From Prescottella subtropica (GTDB lineage: Bacteria > Actinomycetota > Actinomycetes > Mycobacteriales > Mycobacteriaceae): DNA of 64,000 bases. The position numbers and the translations under genes are program-made. Position 1 is the stretch's first letter. Every line of letters begins with the position of its first letter. The notes beneath the pieces were generated by a model. That model did no database searches and was not told the origin of the DNA. It saw only the letters and a list, made by a program, of their open reading frames with translations. Where the stretch lies: positions 1 through 64,000 of the forward strand of contig NZ_SKCH01000005.1 in NCBI RefSeq assembly GCF_005434945.1, in the 5' to 3' direction. Below are positions 1 to 44,520 of this stretch, one piece after another.

Positions 1-3
1 AGA

Positions 4-122
4 GTTACGGCGGCCATAGCGGAGGGGAAACGCCCGGTCCCATTCCGAACCCGGAAGCTAAGCCCTCCAGCGCCGATGGTACTGCACTCGACAGGGTGTG
101 GGAGAGTAGGACACCGCCGAAC
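4..122 (+). rRNA. rrf: 5S ribosomal RNA
   Basis: About 119 nt matching actinobacterial 5S rRNA. The terminal helix pairs the gttacggcgg start with ccgccgaac at the 3' end, and the conserved cccattccgaacccggaag loop region is present. It is the last gene of an rRNA operon; the 16S and 23S genes would lie left of the window. Confidence 0.95.
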
Positions 123-132
123 ATCCGTTACC

Positions 133-164
133 GAAAGGGGACCCGACATACTGGGTCCCCTTTC
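133..164 (+). terminator. rRNA operon terminator
   Basis: Perfect 12-bp inverted repeat gaaaggggaccc / gggtcccctttc with an 8-nt loop, starting about 10 nt after the 5S 3' end. Position and stem strength fit an intrinsic terminator for the rrn operon. Confidence 0.85.
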
Positions 165-190
165 GTGCTTTGTACTGAAAGGAATGGGTC

Positions 191-1273
191 GTGTCGGACA
201 GCAGTGGTGATCGTCGGGGCTTCCGCGGAGACGGCAGCCACCGATCCGAAGGATCTCGGGACGGTCGTCCCAGCGACCGTCGTGGTCCGAGTGGCGACCG
301 CAGTCAGGGGTACTCGGGTCAGGACCGGACCGGCGGACAGAACCGTGGATCCGGGCAGTGGCGTGACCGTGACGACCGCCGCGGTGACGATCGGCGAGAC
401 GACCGTCGTGGAGAAGATCGTCGCGGAGACGACCGCGGTGATCGTGGCGGTGACCGTCGGCAGTTCCAGGGTCGCGGCGGTGACGACCGTCGTCGCACCG
501 GCGGTGCTCCGCACCGACGTGGCGGCGAGGGCGGATTCGGACCCGCACGGGGACGCGACAACCGCGAATACCAGGGCCCGCAGCGGCGTGACGCCCGCCC
601 CGACGAACCGGACATCCCCGACGAGGTGGAACCCGGTGATCTCGACGGCGCGGTCCGGCGCGACCTGCTGAGCCTCGACAAGAACAACGCGAACACCGTC
701 GCCCGGCATCTCGTCATGGCGAGCCGGCTCATCGAGGACGATCCGGTCCTCGCGCTCGCGCACGCACGTGCGGCACGGCAGCGGGCCGGCCGTATCGCGG
801 TGGTCCGTGAGACCGCGGGCATCACCGCGTACCACGCCGGCGAGTGGGCCGAAGCGCTCTCCGAGCTGCGTGCGGCGCGACGGATGTCCGGGGGGCCGGG
901 CTTCCTGGCGATCATGGCCGACTGCGAACGCGGTCTCGGACGTTCGGAACGGGCCATCGAACTCGGGCGGAGCGAGGAGGCCCGCGCACTGACCGGTGAC
1001 GAAGCCGGCGAACTGCGCATGGTCGTCGCGGGTGCCCGCATGGATCTGGGGCAGTTCGACCAGGCCGTCGTCACGTTGCAGACACCTGATCTCGATCCCA
1101 AGCGCACCGGTCCCGCCGCGGCACGCCTGTTCTACGCATACGCCGACGCGCTCGTCGCGGCCGGACGCATCAAGGACGGCCTCGAATGGTTCCTCAATTC
1201 GGCGGCCGCCGATCTCGAGGGCGACACCGACGCGGAGGAGCGTGTGGCCGAACTGACCGGAGAAGGTCAGTGA
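191..1273 (+). CDS. TPR-like protein with Arg/Asp/Gly-rich N-terminal tail (Rv1691-type)
   Basis: GTG start; 360 aa. Residues 1 to about 130 are extreme low complexity, with many RGD, DDRRG and RGGDRR blocks, so this part is probably disordered and highly charged. Residues about 150-350 are alpha-helical, with A/L-rich paired helices of tetratricopeptide type (for example the segments around DPVLALAHARAARQRAG and GQFDQAVVTLQ). By position (directly before the HAD phosphatase and tlyA) it corresponds to M. tuberculosis Rv1691. No catalytic motif is visible, so a scaffold or RNA/protein-binding role is only inferred. It ends in a GTGA overlap with the next gene, so the two are probably co-translated. 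Confidence 0.85.
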   Translation: MSDSSGDRRGFRGDGSHRSEGSRDGRPSDRRGPSGDRSQGYSGQDRTGGQNRGSGQWRDRDDRRGDDRRDDRRGEDRRGDDRGDRGGDRRQFQGRGGDDRRRTGGAPHRRGGEGGFGPARGRDNREYQGPQRRDARPDEPDIPDEVEPGDLDGAVRRDLLSLDKNNANTVARHLVMASRLIEDDPVLALAHARAARQRAGRIAVVRETAGITAYHAGEWAEALSELRAARRMSGGPGFLAIMADCERGLGRSERAIELGRSEEARALTGDEAGELRMVVAGARMDLGQFDQAVVTLQTPDLDPKRTGPAAARLFYAYADALVAAGRIKDGLEWFLNSAAADLEGDTDAEERVAELTGEGQ

Positions 1274-2289
1274 CGGACGCGCACGACGCCGCCGGAACCA
1301 CGCTGCGAGGCGAGTACGACGTCCTGCTCCTGGACCTGGACGGCACCGTCTACCAGGGCCCGCACGCCATCCCCGGTGCGCGGGAGGCGCTCGCGGCGGG
1401 CGACGGGCGGCAGTTCTACGTCACGAACAACGCGAGCCGGACTCCGGGCGACGTCGCGCAGCACCTGCGCGATCTGGGATTCGATGCGGTCGACGAGGAC
1501 GTCGTCACGAGTTCGCAGTCCGCGGCGCGTCTCCTCGCCGAACGACTCGATCCCGGCGCTGCCGTTCTCGTCGTCGGGACCGAGGCGCTCGCCGGTGAGA
1601 TCACGAAGGTCGGACTGACCCCGGTCCGCCGGTTCCAGGACACGCCGGTGGCCGTCGTCCAAGGCCACAACCCGGACACCGGGTGGCGGATTCTCGCGGA
1701 GGCGACACTCGCGATCCGGTCCGGGGCGGTGTGGGTGGCGTCGAACATCGATACCACCCTGCCCACCGAACGCGGTCTCGTCCTGGGGAACGGATCGATG
1801 GTCGCGGCACTGCAGACGGCGACGGGACAGCAACCGCTGGTCGCAGGTAAACCGGCTGCCCCGCTGATGGAGGACGCGCTGCGTCGCTCGGGGGCCGACC
1901 GTCCCCTCGTCGTCGGCGACCGACTCGACACCGACATCGCCGGCGCGAACGCCGTCGGCGTGGATTCGCTGCTCGTGCTGACCGGCGTCAGCACCCCCGC
2001 GGATCTGCTGCGGGCCGATGCGTCGCACCGTCCGACATACGTCGCACGATCGCTCGACGCCCTCAACGGGCCGTCGACGGCCGCCCGGGTCGCCCCGCAC
2101 GACGGCTGGCGCGTCGAATTCGAGTCCGGTGACCTCGTCGTGCACGCCGACGGCGCACAGTCGTCCGACCGTTCCGGTGCGTTCCTGTCGGTGCTCGCCG
2201 CGGCGTGGCGTCATCCCGAGTTCGTGACAGTCCGGGCCGGCGACGACACCGCACGCGCCGCCACAGCCGTTCTCTCGGGTGACATCTGA
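1270..2289 (+). CDS. HAD-superfamily (class IIA, NagD-like) phosphatase
   Basis: 339 aa from a GTG that overlaps the upstream stop (GTGA). HAD motif I, DLDGT, is at residues 22-26 after a hydrophobic strand; TNNAS gives motif II, and GKPA plus GDRLDTDIAGA give motifs III/IV. A class II cap lies between motifs II and III. The C-terminal ~80 residues form an extra domain, as in M. tuberculosis Rv1692, reported as a glycerol-3-phosphate phosphatase in lipid recycling. That substrate is an inference from orthology and synteny here. A longer upstream reading would run back into the TPR gene, so the GTG is preferred. Confidence 0.9.
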   Translation: MTDAHDAAGTTLRGEYDVLLLDLDGTVYQGPHAIPGAREALAAGDGRQFYVTNNASRTPGDVAQHLRDLGFDAVDEDVVTSSQSAARLLAERLDPGAAVLVVGTEALAGEITKVGLTPVRRFQDTPVAVVQGHNPDTGWRILAEATLAIRSGAVWVASNIDTTLPTERGLVLGNGSMVAALQTATGQQPLVAGKPAAPLMEDALRRSGADRPLVVGDRLDTDIAGANAVGVDSLLVLTGVSTPADLLRADASHRPTYVARSLDALNGPSTAARVAPHDGWRVEFESGDLVVHADGAQSSDRSGAFLSVLAAAWRHPEFVTVRAGDDTARAATAVLSGDI

Positions 2290-2324
2290 CGGCACCGCCG
2301 AAGTGACATCTGACGGCACCGCCG
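2279..2324 (+). repeat. two-copy tandem direct repeat across a stop codon
   Basis: The 22-bp unit gtgacatctgacggcaccgc(cg) occurs at 2279-2300 and 2303-2324, separated by aa. The first copy contains the TGA stop of the HAD gene and the second is intergenic, so the copy reproduces the end of the coding region. Confidence 0.8.
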
Positions 2325-2351
2325 TCGGACCGATGGGCTAGGTTGGCACCG

Positions 2352-2570
2352 ATGAGCACGCCAGTACCACTTCCAGGCCGCCGCCTCCCGGAATCGGGTG
2401 GTGGCGCTGCCCCGGAGGACGTGCGCGCACGGGTCGACGCACTCCTGGCGAGGCTGACCGACGTGCCGTCCGATACGACCGGTGTGGACGAACTGGCGCG
2501 CCGGGCACAGATTCTCGAACGGGCTCACGAGGTTCTCGTCGAGTCCCTGGCAGCAGTGGACAAGGTCTGA
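2352..2570 (+). CDS. small conserved protein (Rv1693-type)
   Basis: 72 aa from ATG at 2352; a TTG three codons upstream is possible but less likely. It starts with a Pro/Gly-rich segment and continues as one or two helices (EDVRARVDALLARL and LARRAQILERAHEVLVESL), which look coiled-coil prone. It ends directly before tlyA (the GTG of tlyA is 2 nt after the stop), and the same small gene sits between the HAD phosphatase and tlyA in mycobacteria. Function unknown. Confidence 0.75.
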   Translation: MSTPVPLPGRRLPESGGGAAPEDVRARVDALLARLTDVPSDTTGVDELARRAQILERAHEVLVESLAAVDKV

Positions 2571-2571
2571 G

Positions 2572-3405
2572 GTGGCACGTCGAGCAAGGGTCGATGCGGA
2601 ACTCGTGCGGCGGGGGCTCGCCCGCTCCAGGGAACACGCGCAGGAACTGATCGGGGCCGGACGCGTCCTCATCGCGGGCACTGTCGCGACCAAGCCCGCG
2701 ACGGCCGTCGAGACCGGAACACCGCTCCTCGTCACCGACGTCGGCGAGGAGGTCTCGTGGGCGTCACGCGGCGCGCACAAACTGATCGGGGCACTCGACG
2801 CGTTCACCCCGCACGGGCTCACCGTGGAGGGACGCCGCTGCCTCGACGCCGGTGCCTCCACCGGCGGCTTCACCGATGTCCTGTTGCACCACGGTGCCCG
2901 GGAAGTGGTGGCCGTCGACGTCGGCTACGGCCAGCTGGTGTGGCGGCTGCAGTCCGACGACCGGGTGCACGTCGTCGACCGGACCAACGTGCGCTCCATC
3001 GACGCCGAGAAGATCGGTGGCCGCGTCGATCTCGTGGTGGCGGACCTGTCGTTCATCTCGCTGAAGCTGGTGCTGCCGGCGCTGGTGGCGTGCGTGAACG
3101 ACGGTGCCGATCTGGTGCCGATGGTCAAGCCGCAGTTCGAGGTCGGCAAGGATCGTGTCGGATCCGGTGGTGTGGTGCGCGATCCGGAACTGCGCGCGAG
3201 CGCGGTCCGCGAGGTCGCCGACGCCGCCGCCGCACTGGGACTGCGGACCCTGGGTGTCGTGGCGAGCCCGCTGCCGGGGCCGTCGGGCAACGTCGAATAC
3301 TTTCTGTGGCTACGCAAAGACGCTGCTGCGTCGCCGGCGGTGGACGAATCCGGCCCGTCCGTCGACGATCTGATCCGTCGTGCGGTCGAGGACGGCCCGC
3401 AGTGA
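2572..3405 (+). CDS. tlyA: 16S/23S rRNA 2'-O-methyltransferase TlyA
   Basis: 277 aa from GTG at 2572, close to the 268 aa of the mycobacterial enzyme. An N-terminal S4 RNA-binding domain (residues about 2-62, [19 protein letters not shown]) is followed by an FtsJ/RrmJ-type methyltransferase fold with the SAM motif [24 protein letters not shown] and the MVKPQFEVG strand carry the family's D and K residues. TlyA methylates C1409 (16S) and C1920 (23S) and sensitises ribosomes to capreomycin and viomycin. It is tightly packed with the 72-aa gene before it and overlaps the NAD kinase start by 4 nt. Confidence 0.95.
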
Positions 3406-4319
3406 CCGGCCGTCAGGTGCTGCTGGTCGCGCACTCCGGTCGCCCCGAGATCACCGAGACAGCACGTCGCGTCGCCGAGATCTGCGCCCGCGCCGGGATC
3501 GCCCTGCGCCTGCTCGAGAACGAAGTCGACGTCGACCGGGTCAAGGCCATCGCCGACGGCCCCGGCAGCCCGGTGATCACCGTCGTCCCGGAGGGGCCGG
3601 GAGCGGCCGCGGACTGCGAGATGGTGATCGTGCTCGGTGGCGACGGCAGCTTCCTGCGCGGCGCCGAACTCGCCCGGTCCACCGACGTTCCCGTCCTCGG
3701 TATCAACCTGGGCCGCATCGGGTTCCTCGCCGAAACCGAGGCCGAACACCTCGAGACGGCGATGGAACAGGTGGTGCGCCGCGAATACCGGATCGAGGCG
3801 CGCATGACCCTCGACGTGGTGATCCGCGTCGAGGACCGCATCGTGCAACGCGGCTGGGCCCTCAACGAGGCCAGCATCGAGAACCGGTCCCGCCTCGGGG
3901 TCCTCGAAGTGGTGCTCGAGGTCGACGGCCGTCCGGTGTCCGCGTTCGGCTGCGACGGGGTGCTCGTCGCGACCCCCACCGGGTCGACGGCGTACGCGTT
4001 CTCCGCCGGCGGTCCCATCGTGTGGCCGGAACTCGAAGCGCTGCTGGTGATCCCGAGCAATGCGCACGCACTGTTCGCGCGCCCGCTCGTCACCAGCCCG
4101 GAATCGATCGTCGCGATCGAGACGGTCGCGGACAGCCACGACGGCCTGGTGTTCTGCGACGGCCGCCGCACACTGGAATTGCCGGCCGGTGGCCGCGTCG
4201 AGGTGATCCGCGGCACGGACCCGATTCGTTGGGTGCGTCTCGACTCGGCGCCGTTCGCGGACCGTATGGTGACGAAGTTCGATCTTCCGGTGACGGGGTG
4301 GCGAGGGAGGAAACGGTAG
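3402..4319 (+). CDS. nadK: NAD kinase
   Basis: 305 aa from GTG at 3402 overlapping the tlyA stop (GTGA). The ATP/NAD-kinase signature GGDG is at residues 79-82 ([16 protein letters not shown]), followed by the [13 protein letters not shown] strand, the [10 protein letters not shown] motif and the glycine-rich [15 protein letters not shown] segment. It phosphorylates NAD+ to NADP+ in the cytosol. The longer in-frame extension upstream overlaps all of tlyA and is Arg-rich shadow sequence, so it was rejected. Confidence 0.95.
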
Positions 4320-4321
4320 CG

Positions 4322-6097
4322 GTGCTGGCGGAGATTCGGATCGACAACCTCGGGGCCATCTCGTCGGCCTGCGCGCAGTTCCATTCCGGTCTCACCGTGC
4401 TCACCGGCGAGACCGGTGCCGGCAAGACGATGGTGGTGACGAGCCTGCACCTGCTCAGCGGTGCCCGCGCCGACGCGGGCCGGGTCCGGGTCGGCGCCAC
4501 CCGCGCCGTCGTCGAGGGCCGGTTCCTCGTCGACGAGGACGCCCCCCGGATCGACGACGAGATCACCCGACTGCTCGAGTCGTGCGGTGCCGAACGCGAC
4601 GAGGACGGCAGCATCATCGCCGTCCGCACCGTCGGTGGCGACGGCCGTTCCCGCGCCCACCTGGGAGGGCGCAGCGTGCCCGCAGGTGTGCTGTCCGAGT
4701 TCACCGACCCGCTGCTCACCGTCCACGGGCAGAACGACCAGTTGCGGTTGCTGCGCCCCGATCAGCAGCGCGCGGCGCTCGACCGGTTCGCGGACAAGAC
4801 CGTCGCCCCGCTGCTCACGAAGTACCGCACCCACCGCACCGAATGGTCGACCGCCCGCGCCGAACTGATCGAACGGACCGGCAGGACCCGGGAACTCGCG
4901 CAGGAAGCGGACCGGTTGACGTTCGCGCTCGAGGAGATCGACCGGATCGCGCCCACCCCGGGGGAGGACACCGCGATTGTCGACGAGGTCCGCCGACTCG
5001 GCGACCTGGACTCGCTGCGCAGCACCGCCGAGGGCGCGCAGACCGCGCTGTCCGGCGCCGACGACACCGCCGGTGACACCACCGGAGCCCTCGACCTGCT
5101 CGGGGCCGCTCGGGCGCGCATCGAGGCGTCCGACGACCCCGCCCTCGCCGGACTCGGGCCGCGACTGGGGGAGGCGATCGCCGTCGTCGCCGACGTCGCC
5201 GGGGAACTGTCCGGATACCTGTCCGGGCTGCCGAGCGATCCGGGTGCCCTCGACACGCTGCTGACCCGTCAGGCCGAACTCAAGACTCTCACCCGTAAGT
5301 ACGCCGCCGACATCGACGGTGTCCTCGGCTGGGCGGACACCGCTCGGGACCGGCTGGCCCGCCTCGACACGTCCTCCGAGGCGCTGTCGGCGCTGGTGGC
5401 GGCCGTCGACCGGGCCGCCGCCGAGACCGCGGCGGCCGCGTCGAAACTGTCCGCGGCCCGGGTCCGGGCGGCGAAGAAACTCGCGAAGGCGGTCAGCGAC
5501 GAGTTGGCCGGTCTCGCGATGGGCCGGGCCGCACTCGAGGTGTCGGTACGGCCGCGCGAGGTGGGGCCGAACGATACGGCGCCGCTGACCGTGGACGGCC
5601 GGGAGGTGCACGCGGGGGCGTCCGGCGTCGACGAGGTGGAGTTCCGACTGGCCGCGCACTCCGGGGCCGCGGCACTGCCGATCAGCAAGAGCGCGTCCGG
5701 CGGTGAACTGTCCCGGGTGATGCTCGCCCTCGAGGTGGTGCTCGCCGGATCGGATCGCGGCGCGACGATGGTGTTCGACGAGGTCGACGCGGGTGTCGGT
5801 GGGCGGGCCGCCGTCGAGATCGGCCGCCGGCTGGCCCGGCTCGCCCGCACCCATCAGGTCATCGTCGTCACCCATCTGCCGCAGGTGGCGGCGTTCGCGG
5901 ACACCCACCTGGTGGTCGACAAGACCGACGACGTGCGCAGCGGCGTCGACAGCGGGGTCCGCACCCTCACCGAGGGGGATCGGGTCGTCGAACTCGCCCG
6001 CATGCTCGCCGGACTCGACGACACCGAGACGGGCCGCGCGCACGCGGAGGAATTGTTGACGATCGCGGGGCAGGAACGCAGCGCCGCGCACGCATGA
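4322..6097 (+). CDS. recN: DNA repair protein RecN (SMC-like ATPase)
   Basis: 591 aa from GTG at 4322, 2 nt after the NAD kinase stop. Walker A GETGAGKT is at residues 29-36, followed by the RecN-type HGQNDQ motif. Long central coiled-coil segments (about 170-420) precede the ABC signature SASGGELSR and Walker B MVFDEVDAGVGG, with the H-loop HLPQVAAFAD after it. Length matches the family. Acts in recombinational repair of double-strand breaks. The tlyA-nadK-recN order is conserved in actinobacteria. Confidence 0.95.
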   Translation: MLAEIRIDNLGAISSACAQFHSGLTVLTGETGAGKTMVVTSLHLLSGARADAGRVRVGATRAVVEGRFLVDEDAPRIDDEITRLLESCGAERDEDGSIIAVRTVGGDGRSRAHLGGRSVPAGVLSEFTDPLLTVHGQNDQLRLLRPDQQRAALDRFADKTVAPLLTKYRTHRTEWSTARAELIERTGRTRELAQEADRLTFALEEIDRIAPTPGEDTAIVDEVRRLGDLDSLRSTAEGAQTALSGADDTAGDTTGALDLLGAARARIEASDDPALAGLGPRLGEAIAVVADVAGELSGYLSGLPSDPGALDTLLTRQAELKTLTRKYAADIDGVLGWADTARDRLARLDTSSEALSALVAAVDRAAAETAAAASKLSAARVRAAKKLAKAVSDELAGLAMGRAALEVSVRPREVGPNDTAPLTVDGREVHAGASGVDEVEFRLAAHSGAAALPISKSASGGELSRVMLALEVVLAGSDRGATMVFDEVDAGVGGRAAVEIGRRLARLARTHQVIVVTHLPQVAAFADTHLVVDKTDDVRSGVDSGVRTLTEGDRVVELARMLAGLDDTETGRAHAEELLTIAGQERSAAHA

Positions 6098-6200
6098 CAC
6101 TCCGAAAAGAACCTGATGGTTGGTGTCGGTCGACGGTGTGTGATAGACGGTACGGCGCGCCTCCCGGACCATCCCGGCGCGGCACGGGATCATCGACGCC

Positions 6201-7385
6201 ATGAAGATGCCAGGGCTGCTCTCCCGTAAGACCGAATCCCTACCCGGTATCAGTGGCATCGCGCGCGTCGACCGGGACACCGGGAAACTGCTGCGCCGGG
6301 TCGGGGACGGCGACATCGTCGTCCTCGACGAGATCGATCTGGACCGTGTCACCGCGGACGCGCTCGTCACCGCCGGTGTGCTGGCGGTGGTCAACGCGTC
6401 GCCGTCCATCACGGGCCGCTACCCGAACCTCGGCCCGGAGGTGCTGGTCGCCAACGGCATCGTCCTGATCGACACGGCGGGCGCCGAGGTGTTCAAGGCG
6501 ATCAAGGACGGTTCGAAGATCCGCCTGCACGAGGGGTCGGTGTACGCGGGGGAGCGGGTGCTGGCGGAGGGCACCGAGCAGACCGAGGCCGAGATCTCCG
6601 ATCGGATGATCGAGGCGAAGACGGGACTCGTCGACCATCTCGAGGCGTTCTCGGGTAACACGATCGAGTTCATCCGCTCGGAGAGCCCGTTGCTCATCGA
6701 CGGTGTCGGTGTCCCCGACATCGATGTCGACCTCACGGACCGGCATGTCGTGGTCGTCGCCGACGGACCCGACCACGAGGCGGACCTCAAGGCCCTCAAG
6801 CCGTTCATCAAGGAGTATTCACCGATCCTGGTCGGTGTCGGTGTCGGTGCAGACGCCCTCACCAAGGCCGGTTACCGGCCGGATCTGATCGTCGGCGACC
6901 CCGACCGGATCACCTCCGAGACCCTCAAGTGCGGTGCCGAGGTGGTGTTGCCGGCCGACCCGGACGGGCACGCGCGCGGACTGGCCCGCATCCAGGACCT
7001 CGGGATCGGCGCCATGACGTTCCCGGCGTCGGCGTCGCCGTCGGATCTGGCGTTACTGCTGGTCGACCACCACGGGGCGTCGCTCATCGTCACGGTCGGT
7101 GCGGCCGTCTCGCTCGACGAGTTCTTCGACCGCGGCCGCCGCGACACCAACCCGGCCGCGTTCATGACCCGGCTGAAGGTCGGCCCGAAACTGGTCGACG
7201 CCAAGGCCGTGGCGACGCTGTACCGCAGCCGGGTCTCCGGTGCCGCGATCGCGCTGCTGGTCCTCGCGGCGCTGACCGCGGTGATCGTGGCGCTCGTCGT
7301 CTCGAACATCGGTGGGGACGCCCTCGACTGGGCGATCGCCACGTGGAACAGCTTCGCGCTGTGGGTGCAGGGGCTCTTCAGGTGA
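6201..7385 (+). CDS. steA: SteA-like septal ring protein
   Basis: 394 aa, ATG start after a 103-bp gap, so possibly with its own promoter. It has soluble domains of the thiamin-pyrophosphokinase-like family (HVVVVADGP, EYSPILVGVGVGADAL, PDLIVGDPD), then one transmembrane helix near residues 345-368 and a short Trp-rich tail. Orthologue by order of M. tuberculosis Rv1697 and Corynebacterium glutamicum SteA, which with SteB recruits the peptidoglycan hydrolase RipA to the septum. The stop overlaps the GTG of the next gene (GTGA), so the pair is probably translationally coupled. Confidence 0.88.
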   Translation: MKMPGLLSRKTESLPGISGIARVDRDTGKLLRRVGDGDIVVLDEIDLDRVTADALVTAGVLAVVNASPSITGRYPNLGPEVLVANGIVLIDTAGAEVFKAIKDGSKIRLHEGSVYAGERVLAEGTEQTEAEISDRMIEAKTGLVDHLEAFSGNTIEFIRSESPLLIDGVGVPDIDVDLTDRHVVVVADGPDHEADLKALKPFIKEYSPILVGVGVGADALTKAGYRPDLIVGDPDRITSETLKCGAEVVLPADPDGHARGLARIQDLGIGAMTFPASASPSDLALLLVDHHGASLIVTVGAAVSLDEFFDRGRRDTNPAAFMTRLKVGPKLVDAKAVATLYRSRVSGAAIALLVLAALTAVIVALVVSNIGGDALDWAIATWNSFALWVQGLFR

Positions 7386-8326
7386 TCTCTCTGCGTCAAC
7401 ACGCCATCTCCATCGCCGCGATCTTCCTGGCCCTCGCGATCGGGGTGGTCCTCGGATCCGGTTTGCTGTCGAACGGCATGCTGTCCGGGCTGCGCGACGA
7501 CAAGTCCCGGTTGCAGACCGAGATCGAGGATCTGCACGAGTCGAACAACCGGTTCACCGAGCAGCTGATCGCGGCGGACGGGTTCGATGCGACGGTCGCC
7601 GACCGGATCGTGCGGGACACCCTCGCGCAGCGGCCGGTGGTGGTGTTCACCACACCGGACACCGATCCGGGGGACCTCGAGGGCCTGACCCGGGCCGTCG
7701 GGCAGGCCGGTGGATCGGTGTCCGGGCGGGTCTCGCTCACCGAGTCGTTCGTCGACGCCGCGAACAGTGATCAGCTGCGCACCCTCGTGACCAACGTGGT
7801 GCCGGCCGGGACCCAGTTGCGGACCGGTGCGGTGGATCAGGGCAGCCTGACCGGCGACCTGCTCGGCTCGGTGCTGCTGCTGAACCCGCAGACTGCGCAG
7901 CCGCAGACCACCCCCGCCGAGCGGATGCTGGCCCTGGACACGCTGCGGGGCGGCGGATTCGTCGAATTCGACGGTGACGTGCAGCCCGGGCAGCTCGCGG
8001 TCGTGCTCACCGGTGCCGGGAACCCCGACAACACCGGCGGCAACCGGGGCGCGATCGTGGCGCGGTTCGCGGGTGCGCTCGACGGCCGCGGAGCCGGAAC
8101 CGTGCTCGCCGGGCCGACGGCGTCGGCGGAGGGTAACGGGCCGATCGCGGTGGCACGTGCGGACGCGGCGCTGGCCGCGGTGCTCTCGACCGTCGACGAC
8201 GTCGACCGGGAGTCGGGCCGGATCACCACCGTCCTGGCGCTGCAGGAGCAGTTGGCGGGCGGTTCCGGGCGTTACGGGACGGGGCCGGGAGCGGCCGCGG
8301 TGACCGTCGGTGCGGCGCAGCCGTGA
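7382..8326 (+). CDS. mctB: MctB/SteB family envelope protein
   Basis: 314 aa, the same length as M. tuberculosis MctB (Rv1698). An N-terminal signal anchor (residues about 8-27, SIAAIFLALAIGVVLGSGLL) is followed by a coiled coil (DDKSRLQTEIEDLHESNNRF) and an extracytoplasmic alpha/beta domain. MctB was described as a mycobacterial outer-membrane copper-efflux protein; the corynebacterial counterpart SteB partners SteA in cell separation. Both names apply to this family, and tight coupling with steA favours the division role here. Confidence 0.88.
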   Translation: MISLRQHAISIAAIFLALAIGVVLGSGLLSNGMLSGLRDDKSRLQTEIEDLHESNNRFTEQLIAADGFDATVADRIVRDTLAQRPVVVFTTPDTDPGDLEGLTRAVGQAGGSVSGRVSLTESFVDAANSDQLRTLVTNVVPAGTQLRTGAVDQGSLTGDLLGSVLLLNPQTAQPQTTPAERMLALDTLRGGGFVEFDGDVQPGQLAVVLTGAGNPDNTGGNRGAIVARFAGALDGRGAGTVLAGPTASAEGNGPIAVARADAALAAVLSTVDDVDRESGRITTVLALQEQLAGGSGRYGTGPGAAAVTVGAAQP

Positions 8327-8343
8327 CGCAGGTGTTACCGTGA

Positions 8344-10143
<1,800 letters not shown>

Positions 10144-40886: not shown

Positions 40887-41183
40887 GGAACTGCCTCACT
40901 TTTCGGTACCAGCGGCGTCCGCGACGCACGAGGGGTGCGGGGACACCGAACGGGACGAGCACAATGTTACCCGGCAGTAGCTTCCGGGGAAGATCGGTCC
41001 GGAACGCGTGTCGGGGCGTCGACGAATACAGCTATCGGCGAGCTGAGGCGCGTGCGGTGGGCGCCGACCGTGACGCGAACACTCGGTACGGGTTCGCGCG
41101 CAGTCTCGATCACGATCGGCGAGTGAGCCGATCCGTGACGAATGCTACTGCCGCGGTTGCGGGGTCGCGCGGCGGGGCAGGGC

Positions 41184-41307
41184 GGGTCCGGTGAACGGTT
41201 GGTCGGGTGCGGTGAGTGGTGCGGGAGCGTGCAGCGGGTGCTGCTGCGCGCGAGTCGACACGGTGCGCGCGCAATCGGGCGCGCAGGAGGCGAAGTCGCG
41301 CGCGGCG
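41184..41307. repeat. 124-bp dispersed direct repeat, copy A
   Basis: Starts gggtccggtgaacggtt and ends gaagtcgcgcgcggcg. Copy B at 43800-43923 has the same length and orientation with three mismatches by eye. It lies in the 508-bp gene-free stretch between glcB and the toxin gene; the rest of that stretch (40887-41183 and 41308-41394) holds no gene I can support. Confidence 0.92.
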
Positions 41308-41394
41308 CCTCACGGCTGCGATCGATCGACTCGAGAGCGGTGGCGGGGTCGAGGGCGATCTCGTCGAATGAGGTCCGCGTCGACAGACTCTCGG

Positions 41395-41757
41395 TCAGGA
41401 CTTCCAGATGTCGGTGATCATCGCCGTGACTTCCTCGGCGATCGGGCGGTTATCCCAGGTTGCGAGCCTGGATTTGGCGAGCTCGTAGCATTTGTCGTCG
41501 GCGCGTTCGGCGATCACCCAGATGACGACGACGGTGTCGTCCGCGTCGACGCGGTAGATGATCCGGCACTGGCGGTCACCGACGACGAGTTTGCGGAACC
41601 CGGTGAGGTCGCTGGAGGCCCGACTGCCCAGCGGCTGACCACGTTTCGACGGTTCGCTCTCGAGTTTCCGCAGGGCTTTGACGACGAGTTTCTGCGCGGA
41701 CTTGTCGAGGTCGGCGAGGTCGTCCTTCGCATCGTCGGTGAGTTCGATCCGGGCCAT
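41395..41757 (-). CDS. RelE/ParE-superfamily toxin
   Basis: 120 aa from ATG at 41757. RelE-type pattern: IELTDDAKDDLADLDKSAQKLVVKALRKLESEP, then GFRKLVVGDRQCRIIYRVDADDTVVVIWVIAERADD. The C-terminal ~30 residues (YELAKSRLATWDNRPIAEEV) extend beyond the minimal RelE fold. Predicted ribosome-dependent mRNA interferase or gyrase inhibitor; the two cannot be told apart by eye. Seven nt downstream of its antitoxin gene. Confidence 0.87.
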   Translation of the reverse strand: MARIELTDDAKDDLADLDKSAQKLVVKALRKLESEPSKRGQPLGSRASSDLTGFRKLVVGDRQCRIIYRVDADDTVVVIWVIAERADDKCYELAKSRLATWDNRPIAEEVTAMITDIWKS

Positions 41758-41764
41758 GTTCGGG

Positions 41765-42049
41765 TCAGTCCTCGTCGATCCCGAGTTCGGCCACGACATC
41801 GTCGAGGGAGTGCCGACGTCCACTGTCGGTGCCGACGCGAACCAGGGTGAGGGCGAGGAACTTGAGGTCCCGCTCGGCCTCCTCGAGTCGCTGGAGGCGC
41901 TCCATCTGCTCTGGTCCGATGATGCAGGCGGCGGGGCTGTTGTTCTTCATGACGACGAACGTGCGTCCGTCGCCGGCCTCGGCGATGACCCGGGACAGAT
42001 CACGGGTCAGCTCCGTGGCGCTGACGATGTCGTTCGAGTCGATCTGCAT
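41765..42049 (-). CDS. Phd/YefM-type antitoxin
   Basis: 94 aa from ATG at 42049. The N-terminal Phd/YefM DNA-binding fold is typical: SATELTRDLSRVIAEAGDGRTFVVMKNNSPAACIIGPEQMERL. A C-terminal helix would wrap the toxin. Antitoxin precedes toxin, the usual order for autoregulation. tacagt (minus strand, 42061-42056) ends 6 nt before the ATG and no Shine-Dalgarno is visible, so translation may be leaderless. Confidence 0.9.
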   Translation of the reverse strand: MQIDSNDIVSATELTRDLSRVIAEAGDGRTFVVMKNNSPAACIIGPEQMERLQRLEEAERDLKFLALTLVRVGTDSGRRHSLDDVVAELGIDED

Positions 42050-42055
42050 GGCATC

Positions 42056-42102
42056 ACTGTACCCATGATTCTTTGAAGATTTCTACGGAAAAATGTTTTC
42101 CG
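42056..42102 (-). promoter_or_regulatory. candidate toxin-antitoxin promoter and operator
   Basis: The -10-like tacagt lies at 42056-42061 (read on the minus strand). An AT-rich 7-bp inverted repeat cggaaaa-atg-ttttccg is at 42086-42102, a plausible operator for autorepression. The -35 is not clear. Confidence 0.4.
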
Positions 42103-42270
42103 AGGTGGGCGCCCGCGAAGCGGGGTGTCCGTACACGAACACGTCTCCGGCACGGTCCACATTGCTTCGACGCGAAGGAGTGATCGACCCCGAGGATGAC
42201 CCGATGCATCCGACGTGATGATGGATGAGGTGCGCTCTTAGCGCGTCGCCGCACCGAATACGATGCAGGC

Positions 42271-43707
42271 GTGAGTGATCGCCGCGTTCGATTACAGGGG
42301 CTACGCCGCCGCGCGAAGCGTCTCCTACCGTCCATATCTCCGAATCCGAAGTGGAACGCAGGAGTGGCTGCCGATGAGCCGCCCATCGCGACATCACTCA
42401 AGGACGGGGTGACCGGGGATCAACACCTCACGGTCTCACCGGCCGAAGAAGGGGCGTCACGTGAGGCGGTCATCACGGCGACCCGTCCTGAGTCGCCGTT
42501 CGATCGCGAACTCGATCAGTACCGGTTGGCCGCCGAAGAGCTTGCCGTGCAGGAGCAGGGCCTCCGCGCCAAACTGGACGAGTGCCGCGACGGCGGTGAC
42601 CTGCTGGTGGACTACCGGCAATACGACAGTCAGCTACGTCGGATACAGGCGTGGCAGCGGAATCTGGCGGTCAGCCGGGGGCGGTACATCGCCGACCGGG
42701 ACCGGCTCGCCGCGTGGGGTTCGACCGAGGACTGGGTTGTGGCCGGGTCCATCGTGACCGTTCGCTATCTGGACGGATCCCGAGACACGTTCGTGCTCAC
42801 CGAGCGCCACGCCGACACCGAGTACGAGACCGTCTCGTACTCGTCGCCGATGGGCCAGGCTGTCCGGAAGCGGAGGGTGGGCGACAAGGTCTCGCTGCCG
42901 GCGGGAGCTCCGCTGGTGATCGACAGCATCATTCCCGGGTTCAGGATGACCGTTTCTCGCGCCGACGGTCTTCAGGAAGCCGATCCGCCCGCTCCTCTCG
43001 CACCGAGACGGACGGTGCCGACCGCCGCGACGTCTGGTGAAGCACTTGCCGGGCAACTGTGCCGGGACAAGGCCTATCGCGACGATCTCTTTGGGCGGCG
43101 GTACGCCCCGAGTGTTCGGTTGATCAACGAGTACGTTGACGAGTTGCGGTCCCGGCGTCACGTATCCATTCCGTATGTGGCCCCGACCTACGGCGGTATC
43201 GACGCACGGTTGCTCACGCTCATGCAAGATCCCGGCCCGAAGACCGACCTGGCCAATGCCGACGGCTCCGGCATGATCTGCCTCGAGAACGTCGACCTCT
43301 CGGCCGCTCGGCAGAAGTTCTTCCTGGACGAAGCTGGCATCCGCATTTCGGAGATCGTGTCGTGGAACGCCTACCCGTGGCCGAAGCCGCACCCCCAGAC
43401 CGGTCGGTCGGATCGCGAGGCGGCCGAGGCGCTTCGCGGGTTCCTCATGCTGATTCCGGGTTTGGAGGTCGTGATCCTCAACGGTGCAGTTGCCAAGCGT
43501 GTTTGGCGTGTGCTCGAGGAGATCGACCCCGCGTGCGTGGCCGGCATCTCGTCGTACCCGACATTCCATACGAGCGAACGAGCGGTCAATCCAACCCAGA
43601 GGTCTGTCGAGTACATCGCCAACGTCCACGGTGACCTGAGCAGCAAGTACGCAGCAGCTGCCCACCGGTTGCGCAGTACGGGGGCTCATCGTCGTTCGTC
43701 CGAGTAG
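42271..43707 (+). CDS. Gre-factor / uracil-DNA-glycosylase-like fusion protein
   Basis: 478 aa, GTG start. Residues 1-75: basic, then disordered. Residues 78-148: a coiled coil resembling the GreA N-terminal hairpin, with a GDLLVDYRQYDSQ segment that lines up with GreA tip GDLKENAEY (Asp kept, Glu lost). Residues 155-222: GreA/GreB C-terminal domain (AGSIVTVRYLDGS, VSYSSPMGQAVRKRRVGDKV). Residues about 265-465: uracil-DNA-glycosylase-like fold with MQDPGP (318-323), WNAYPWP (365-371), VVILNGAVAKRVW and SSYPTFHTS (427-435). Domain calls are by pattern only. It lies between the two 124-bp repeats, divergent from the toxin-antitoxin pair. Possible transcription-coupled base excision or defence role. 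Confidence 0.75.
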   Translation: MSDRRVRLQGLRRRAKRLLPSISPNPKWNAGVAADEPPIATSLKDGVTGDQHLTVSPAEEGASREAVITATRPESPFDRELDQYRLAAEELAVQEQGLRAKLDECRDGGDLLVDYRQYDSQLRRIQAWQRNLAVSRGRYIADRDRLAAWGSTEDWVVAGSIVTVRYLDGSRDTFVLTERHADTEYETVSYSSPMGQAVRKRRVGDKVSLPAGAPLVIDSIIPGFRMTVSRADGLQEADPPAPLAPRRTVPTAATSGEALAGQLCRDKAYRDDLFGRRYAPSVRLINEYVDELRSRRHVSIPYVAPTYGGIDARLLTLMQDPGPKTDLANADGSGMICLENVDLSAARQKFFLDEAGIRISEIVSWNAYPWPKPHPQTGRSDREAAEALRGFLMLIPGLEVVILNGAVAKRVWRVLEEIDPACVAGISSYPTFHTSERAVNPTQRSVEYIANVHGDLSSKYAAAAHRLRSTGAHRRSSE

Positions 43708-43799
43708 CGGAACCGCTGCTGTTCACCATCGAGAGCGACGCTGCTGATGTTTCCACCGTCAAACGACGGGCTGCTACTCGGGGCTCGATGGGGCGGGGT

Positions 43800-43923
43800 G
43801 GGTCCGGTGAACGGTTGTTCGGGTGCGGTGAGTGGTGCGGGAGCGTGCAGCGGGTGCTGCTGCGCGCAAGTTGACACGGTGCGCGCGCAATCGGGCGCGC
43901 AGGAGGCGAAGTCGCGCGCGGCG
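43800..43923. repeat. 124-bp dispersed direct repeat, copy B
   Basis: Direct copy of 41184-41307 with three mismatches, offset 2616 bp. It ends exactly where recognisable yoeB coding sequence begins, so it has replaced or interrupted the 5' part of that gene. Confidence 0.92.
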
Positions 43924-44058
43924 GTGGCGGTGCGTATTACCCGGGACGGATTCCACGGCCACTGGTCGCGGCGTATCACCGACGAACACCGACTCGTCTA
44001 CGAAATCGTCGACGACGAGATCCGGATCGCGGCCTGCCGCTACCACTACGGCAGGTGA
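43924..44058 (+). pseudogene. truncated yoeB toxin (C-terminal fragment)
   Basis: About 44 codons encoding [20 protein letters not shown] followed by [20 protein letters not shown]. The WSRRI..EHRLVY...ACRYHY end is the C-terminus of YoeB, including its catalytic His/Arg and terminal Tyr region. The first ~45 residues of a normal ~85-aa YoeB are missing; upstream in frame is the repeat. An in-frame read-through from 43747 would add unrelated repeat-encoded sequence. No yefM antitoxin adjoins it. Non-functional fragment. Confidence 0.85.
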
Positions 44059-44061
44059 CGG

Positions 44062-44520
44062 TCAGGGAGTGACAGGGACGTAGAGGCGCACGTCGACGTC
44101 GGGCAGTTCGGTGAACGCCTGCCGGATCCGGGGTTCGACGTCGGCCCAGTCGAGTCCGCCGTGACCGCAGCCCAACGGCGGCACTGCAATCGAGGTGATG
44201 CCGCGGTCGCGGATCACGCGCACCAGGTCGGTGAGGCCGGTATCGATATCGGCGAGTCGTGACCGGGACCGCCAGTGCCCCTTGGTGGGGAAGTTGACGA
44301 CGAACCGCGGACTCTCGGGGGCGTCTGTTTCCCACACGTGCATGCAGCCGAGGTGGACCTCACCGGCCCGGCATGCCCGCACATAATCGGTGAACATGTC
44401 CGGGTAGGTGCGGCGGAACTGCCGGGCGATGCCCTTGCCCATGACACCGACGGTGTTGACGGCGTTGACGAGAGCGTCGGCGTCGGCGTCGAGCAGGTTT
44501 CCGGTGGCGGTGGTGAGCAT
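44062..44520 (-). CDS. macrodomain protein, DarG/TARG1-like ADP-ribosyl hydrolase
   Basis: 152 aa from ATG at 44520. A stand-alone macrodomain: GNLLDADADALVNAVNTVGVMGKGIARQF, FPTKGHWRSRSRLADIDTGL and IAVPPLGCGHGGLDW. The GKGIA loop and the PTKGHWRS...DID segment are the hallmarks of the DarG/TARG1 branch, which removes ADP-ribose from DNA bases or acidic residues. No DarT (DNA ADP-ribosyltransferase) gene is next to it, so it is either an orphan antitoxin remnant or an independent hydrolase. It converges on the yoeB fragment with a 3-nt gap. Confidence 0.88.
   Translation of the reverse strand: MLTTATGNLLDADADALVNAVNTVGVMGKGIARQFRRTYPDMFTDYVRACRAGEVHLGCMHVWETDAPESPRFVVNFPTKGHWRSRSRLADIDTGLTDLVRVIRDRGITSIAVPPLGCGHGGLDWADVEPRIRQAFTELPDVDVRLYVPVTP

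Follow-up and report, generated by a model that had tools for sequence, protein, structure and literature searches.

What might a cell, or a genetic element carried by it, gain from joining a Gre transcript-cleavage factor to a uracil-DNA glycosylase (UDG) in a single protein? The question is raised by a gene in a stretch of 64,000 nucleotides from Prescottella subtropica (assembly GCF_005434945.1, contig NZ_SKCH01000005.1, positions 1 to 64,000), here called the window. A sequence-only reading of this DNA had claimed a chain of 478 residues with a Gre-like half and a glycosylase-like half, an architecture that it did not know as a described system. The open reading frame was found where that reading had placed it, the segments named within it are at their positions (Table 1), and each half returned matches to the family proposed for it.

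Table 1. Positions in the window of the fusion gene, the parts of its product and the features around it
Feature	Position	Strand	Basis and remarks
Gre-UDG fusion gene	42271..43707	+	478 aa, GTG start, open frame
N-terminal basic helix (residues ~2-21), then a low-confidence stretch as far as residue 76	42271..42498	+	predicted structure
Gre-like coiled coil, residues 77-150, tip GDLLVD 109-114 (D110)	42499..42720	+	profile match, predicted helices
Gre C-terminal domain, residues 153-225, SSPMG motif (S192)	42727..42945	+	PF01272 153-211
UDG-superfamily domain, residues 259-470	43045..43680	+	profile and fold matches
UDG motif 1, MQDPGP 318-323 (D320)
UDG motif 2, WNAYPWP 365-371 (N366)
UDG motif 3, FHTS 432-435 (H433)
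Left 141-nt direct repeat of cassette	41167..41307	.	repeat comparison
ParE-type toxin in cassette	41395..41757	-	PF05016 E 1.6e-8 on ORF 41395-41823; start by gene caller
Phd/YefM-type antitoxin, divergent neighbour in cassette	41765..42049	-	PF02604 E 8.9e-9
Right 141-nt direct repeat of cassette	43783..43923	.	94% identical to left
Truncated YoeB toxin gene	43879-44058		profile 48-80 of 80 (C-terminal part only); overlaps right repeat
DarG-like macrodomain gene	44062-44520		PADLOC E 4.8e-73; beyond right repeat

The GTG start is supported by the homologue on an R. ruber plasmid, which has a GTG in the corresponding position, and the G+C content of the gene by codon position is 0.68/0.50/0.77. 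A promoter scan for the gene found none; TACGAT, noticed by eye just 5' of the GTG, would fit a leaderless start. The structure model of the full protein is of low confidence (mean pLDDT 54, pTM 0.42), with helices predicted at residues 2-21, 76-106 and 112-148 and a pLDDT below 50 across residues 18-76; the basic N-terminus is alike in some homologues. Against three homologues, dN/dS is ~0.13-0.24 by domain, which points to purifying selection on both halves. This selection on each half rules out an artefactual fusion of reading frames, as do homologues of 67-81% identity that cover both domains in one frame, and chance resemblance of either domain is ruled out by the combined Pfam, profile, fold and homologue evidence. 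The fusion protein had no match in PHROGs (E<=5) or PADLOC (E<=1).

For the Gre half, PF01272 matches residues 153-211 with E 8.9e-8 and 32.4 bits, above its cut-off of 26.9, which identifies a GreA_GreB C-terminal domain. The NCBIfam GreA model aligns over residues 89-213 (E 7.2e-8) with 32.3 bits, below its equivalog cut-off of 161. In a profile-profile comparison, the Gre modules of seven of the nine fusion loci (L046 and L082 being left out) matched four GreA proteins over 131 columns with a probability of 98.5 and E 1.5e-15; the same seven-module profile compared with the UDG profile as a control gave a probability of 0.2. In mycobacterial Gre, according to extracts of one mutational study, S127 is needed for polymerase binding and the tip aspartate D43 for cleavage, and an E46R variant is still active (PMC3132773). 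S192 of the window protein aligns with S127, and this serine is invariant in 7/7 aligned fusion modules. The coiled coil is predicted and aligned, and of its two tip acids D110 is kept and the glutamate is replaced by V113. An acid occupies the D110 position in 6/7 aligned modules, the eight-residue tip being deleted in the copy from genome G486, and the second tip acid has become V, A, V and V in the four window-type modules. With the serine invariant and the tip variable, the docking residue is better conserved than the tip. Because the polymerase-binding serine is invariant in all seven aligned modules, we infer that the Gre module may dock on RNA polymerase. Judging from its tip residues, transcript cleavage by the module is doubtful, and given the activity of E46R the loss of the glutamate is no proof of lost cleavage.

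The glycosylase half was recognised by profile and fold. Searched as a whole protein, it gave no UDG match in Pfam at E<=1; the UDG domain alone matched PF03167 at E 0.021 with 15.3 bits, below the curated cut-off of 24.3. The same family was matched at E<=1 by 9 of the 13 members of the alignment, the window protein included, at best with 3.7e-10. A profile search returned the Thermus thermophilus UDG 2d3y at E 6.5e-4, followed by a de novo designed protein at 2.7e-3. Among the VIA-align matches listed, 49 of 50 fall on the UDG part and are structures of UDG, UdgX, SMUG1 and TDG and of one unnamed conserved protein, the remaining one being a designed coiled coil. By profile and predicted fold, the domain belongs to the UDG superfamily, in agreement with the sequence-only reading. 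No outcome of the kind that would have contradicted that reading turned up, the structure model being of low confidence.

In this superfamily, the characteristic roles are taken by a polar residue in motif 1, an asparagine in motif 2 and a histidine in motif 3, and all are present here as D320, N366 and H433. In an alignment of 63 rows, D320 is found in 4/4 rows of the window clade with letters at that place and in 22/25 related rows, N366 in 5/5 and 24/25, and H433 likewise in 5/5 and 24/25. The farther 33 rows, by a division between near and far that was chosen by the author after the tree, mostly have Ser or Asn in motif 1 and keep N366 in 32 and H433 in 24. Motif 3 reads HTS versus the commoner HPS. 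The asparagine of motif 2 is presumably that of ordinary uracil-reading UDGs, and the glycine of motif 1 stands at what we take to be the position of the UNG tyrosine that excludes thymine. Since motif 1 has an aspartate as in UNG and a glycine for the tyrosine, the domain may possess a uracil-reading pocket with room at C5. Motif 1 reads Q-D-P-G-P, with its aspartate at the position of the catalytic aspartate of UNG, named as D64 in an extract of PMC13160076.

The sequence-only reading had proposed a survey of homologues for the same fusion and for neighbouring defence genes, and the fusion does recur, its Gre-first relatives lying beside defence genes. Homologues were found in Gordonia paraffinivorans (67% identity over residues 62-467) and on two Rhodococcus plasmids (81% over 61-476 and 74% over 34-476), where the annotation "GreA/GreB family elongation factor" hides the second domain. 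In R. aetherivorans the gene is split by a contig end, with its parts on two contigs. The distant copy of G486, at 29% identity, has weak Pfam matches (UDG 8.4e-4, GreA_GreB 0.0046) and no tip. The reversed order, UDG first, occurs in three genomes of one genus; one such protein matches Pfam UDG at 0.003 and GreA_GreB at 0.0034, both below cut-off.

Spread of the fusion is sporadic and in part plasmid-borne. As the genome scans score few candidates per genome, their counts are lower bounds: at least 7 of 401 family genomes have a fusion of any kind, a match at E<=1e-15 was obtained in at least 47 of the 401, and matches were found in at least 54 of 397 genomes of the order at E<=1e-3 and in at least 6 of 396 of the phylum at E<=1e-12. 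None of the 13 congeners scanned matched the fusion protein at E<=1e-15. The 29 UDG loci from the order scan include one fusion, the reversed L004. With the Gre-module profile, at least 4 of 377 genomes of the order matched at E<=1e-9, namely two UDG fusions and two canonical GreA proteins, and no other fusion partner of the module was seen among these genomes at that threshold. Five of the six Gre-only loci of the first scan (L033, L034, L036, L037 and L038; L035 was left out) are ordinary GreA. A phage gene is ruled out by the lack of any match to the fusion protein in 50,697 phage records and by searches of viral contigs, of which a sequence pattern search gave 0 matches, one alignment-based search no relative and another a single standalone UDG. 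This last gene (L094, 3977-6014) adjoins, by eye, a serine-integrase-like gene near the end of its contig.

In a tree of the 63 UDG rows, one clade (100/100) unites the five window-type rows, one of them partial (R. aetherivorans being represented by its C-terminal piece only, with the N-terminal piece left out), and a second clade (100/98) unites the three reversed-order rows; standalone UDGs lie between these clades and around them. The G486 fusion is placed far away from both, next to a standalone UDG (100/98), on a long branch of 1.38. Two distant UDG subclades thus include fusions in the Gre-UDG order, and the reversed order appears in a single place. The table of tree labels covers the UDG halves only, omits unlabelled standalone UDGs and gives a minimum of one change per label, so that each order may have arisen once and then been lost repeatedly. 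The two modules may have been brought together or shifted on several occasions, or else a fusion formed long ago has disappeared from many lineages; in both scenarios the pairing of Gre and UDG has been kept, to judge by the dN/dS values. The Gre-UDG architecture is real and recurrent. Elsewhere on the branch, the UDGs of L087 (7098-8735) and L088 (8269-9885) carry long Ala/Pro/Lys-rich, histone-like tails.

The Gre-first fusion is mobile, being found on two plasmids and, in the window, in a repeat-bounded cassette for which a congener has an empty site. Three genes, the fusion and the Phd/ParE pair, lie between the 141-nt repeats, in DNA of ~61-68% G+C flanked by ~68-80%. The congener G520 aligns on either side and lacks 41307-44480, and neither the toxin-antitoxin pair nor the fusion was found in the corresponding stretches of 13 congeners, not all of which reach the right flank. 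In 12 of 14 genomes of the genus, a portion of the repeat recurs as a dispersed element, in places matching on either strand, so the repeat may be a recombination site and not the mark of a specific transposon. The sequence-only reading had put the gene in a small island and named a macrodomain and a toxin-antitoxin pair as its neighbours there. The pair does share the cassette with the fusion; the macrodomain gene, which lies outside the repeats and is present independently at the same locus in G432 (76%), where neither the pair nor the fusion was seen, was left out of the unit. Genes called next to the macrodomain gene of the window do not look like DarT.

Relatives of the window fusion are located in defence islands. 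The R. ruber plasmid fusion adjoins DISARM genes (by annotation), that of G. paraffinivorans lies beside Wadjet JetA/B/C, that of plasmid pDF02 beside an Mrr-like nuclease (Pfam E 1.2e-4), and that of G486 near a type IIG restriction-methylation enzyme. In R. aetherivorans the broken fusion gene stands antisense at both contig ends, with BrxC/PglY-PglZ-BrxD on one contig and BrxHII and JetC2 on the other. The window is the weakest case: its own neighbours are the toxin-antitoxin pair and the macrodomain gene outside the cassette, the latter being the only strong defence-model match nearby. The reversed-order fusions lie beside ethanolamine-lyase-like and other metabolic genes in 3/3 genomes (by eye, from N-termini), and 0/3 of these loci have strong PADLOC neighbours. 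Between the G486 fusion and the type IIG enzyme (L083, 10973-15035) are genes of 849 and 422 aa that match no Pfam family at E<=0.01.

Of the 33 genes that lie no more than three genes away from a Gre-first fusion (six loci, with L083 contributing its right-hand neighbours only), at least 11 match PADLOC at E<=1e-20, as counted from family names. The control, a small sample of other UDG loci and not of random genome positions, comprised 102 genes at 18 loci (15 without Gre and 3 reversed), after removal of three ORFs that overlapped the UDG and of two genes longer than 1,300 aa; 15 families matched there, representing 6 genes at four loci (L040, L044, L045 and L089). By locus, the comparison is 5/6 versus 4/18 (one-sided Fisher 0.015), or 4/6 versus 4/18 without the macrodomain match of the window (one-sided Fisher 0.07); by gene, it is at least 11/33 versus 6/102 (Fisher 0.0002), with genes of the same operon not being independent. 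Given this dependence, and a control that has some defence association of its own, these figures are support and not proof.

The matched control loci have features of their own. In L040 (G074, 2-8763), a long ORF right after PglW-PglX (BREX type 2) contains a non-fused UDG of the branch to which the fusion belongs; the ORF as called, of 785 aa, matches no Pfam family at E<=0.01. In L044 (G089, 3317-7164), a standalone UDG, likewise of this branch, directly follows a type IV methyl-directed restriction gene (PADLOC E 0). The UDGs of L045 (2988-9616) and L089 (3765-13462), from two families, are near SMC/RecF-like ATPases of 831 and 833 aa with 41% mutual identity, and each locus has a gene of 119-132 aa near the UDG; a ThsA-like (STALD) gene is additionally present in L045, and type I methyltransferase-like and exonuclease-like genes in L089. 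These two loci possibly represent a separate UDG-associated system.

Comparison with known proteins sets the fusion apart on both sides. A KRRIH loop with a covalent histidine is the signature of UdgX, and membership in that family is ruled out by the lack of a KRRIH string in the translated window protein, whose UDG domain is 16-19% identical to UdgX and 12% to family 4 UDGs. SMUG1 has an asparagine in motif 1 where the window protein has an aspartate, and the motif 3 of the latter is HTS. A coiled coil with a GDL tip and an S-P-x-G C-terminal domain are common to the fusion and to GreA/GreB, Gfh1 and Rv3788, from which the fusion differs in the valine at the second tip acid and in the attached glycosylase. 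Restriction glycosylases such as R.PabI have a fold different from that of UDG. In extracts of PMC10273834, they are described as excising bases to abasic sites at recognition sequences unless these are methylated, and the role proposed below for the fusion would likewise be defence by base excision to abasic sites.

The nearest functional parallels are Brig1 and Brig3, UDG-superfamily anti-phage glycosylases obtained from soil DNA (PMC11078745, 2024; PMC13160076, 2026). According to extracts of these papers, Brig1 has 261 aa and comes from a probable actinobacterium, near ThsA-like and Wadjet genes, and a figure legend shows Pgl/BREX genes as well as an ADP-ribosyl glycohydrolase near a Brig1 homologue. 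The fusion shares with them the superfamily and the company of defence genes. It differs in its Gre module, of which the Brig extracts make no mention. The pocket residues in these extracts are E147 in Brig1 and D127 in Brig3, acting on modified cytosines (PMC11078745; PMC13160076), whereas the base reader of the window protein would be Asn366 of motif 2; its target, if viral, would accordingly be a uracil-type base rather than a modified cytosine. No Gre-UDG fusion was found among the matches listed from full-text literature on Gre, UDG and defence systems, and so the architecture is, as far as found, undescribed, in keeping with the sequence-only reading. The extracts of a 2026 BREX survey contain no glycosylase, UDG or uracil term, and in those of the DefensePredictor paper UDG is named only in a legend of predicted systems.

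We tentatively favour the reading that the Gre-first fusion is a mobile DNA glycosylase directed against phages (or plasmids) and carried along by RNA polymerase. Its Gre-type module would dock at the rim of the secondary channel of the host polymerase, and a flexibly tethered UDG domain would thereby be placed beside the DNA under transcription. There it could excise uracil, or C5-substituted uracil such as phages use, leaving abasic sites that would block transcription or replication of the invader and might so protect the host. Confidence in the defence reading is tempered by the strict comparison by locus, which gives 0.07, and by the possibility that the fusion arose only once; since no phage record has a match, no target is suggested from the phage side. 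The sequence-only reading had offered phage-DNA recognition as its alternative to repair at a stalled polymerase, and of the two it is this alternative that the neighbourhoods support.

Repair of the host or plasmid is an unlikely explanation of the fusion as a whole, and possible chiefly for its reversed-order version, which keeps, as judged by eye, the same metabolic neighbours in the three genomes (all of one genus) that carry it. Under transcription-coupled base-excision repair, Gre would find the stalled polymerase and the UDG would remove a template uracil or oxidised pyrimidine, and the defence neighbourhoods would be no more than the usual company of accessory genes. Cytosine deamination afflicts G+C-rich genomes, and the motif 2 asparagine is that of ordinary uracil-reading UDGs. 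For the Gre-first copies, repair is at odds with their sporadic occurrence, no match being found in the 13 congeners and any fusion in at least 7 of 401 family genomes, and with their location on plasmids or beside DISARM, BREX, Wadjet and restriction genes.

It is rather improbable that the fusion is a Brig-like defence effector whose Gre module has nothing to do with polymerase and is simply a tether that binds DNA, RNA or a partner. Other relatives (L087, L088, L091 and L092) carry Ala/Pro/Lys-rich tails or basic N-termini instead of Gre, so that the common theme may be a mere tether; the invariance of the polymerase-binding serine in all seven aligned modules argues against this. About as improbable is a sensor in which the UDG domain binds foreign or uracil-containing DNA and a cleavage-dead Gre inhibits polymerase and so leads to abortive infection, in the manner of Gfh1 and Rv3788, both reported to inhibit it (extracts of PMC4598747): the tip is indeed unlike that of GreA (Val or Ala for Glu in the four window-type modules, absent in G486), and Rv3788, with both acids, shows no cleavage stimulation, which its authors blame on a missing Asn and Tyr, but the tip glutamate is dispensable for cleavage (E46R; extracts of PMC3132773) and the UDG catalytic residues, needless for a pure sensor, are conserved.

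For the biology of these bacteria and their mobile elements, the fusion would matter in the defence reading and in the repair reading alike. If it serves repair, bacteria would have in it a transcription-coupled base-excision factor, likewise absent among the literature matches listed. If it serves defence, it would extend what the Brig papers have established, that UDG-superfamily glycosylases can act against phage, by suggesting that some are delivered by RNA polymerase; such delivery would account for the timely arrival of a scarce glycosylase at its target, and the idea of polymerase as the search vehicle of a defence enzyme would become testable. A categorically new mode of action is possible, and we know of no earlier polymerase-tethered base-excision enzyme. 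Its fullest form would be transcription-coupled base-excision immunity, which we consider conceivable and on the whole doubtful, in which a glycosylase riding on polymerase by means of a repurposed Gre module removes modified phage bases where they are expressed. If true, base chemistry combined with active transcription would distinguish self from non-self, which would be a new mode of defence.
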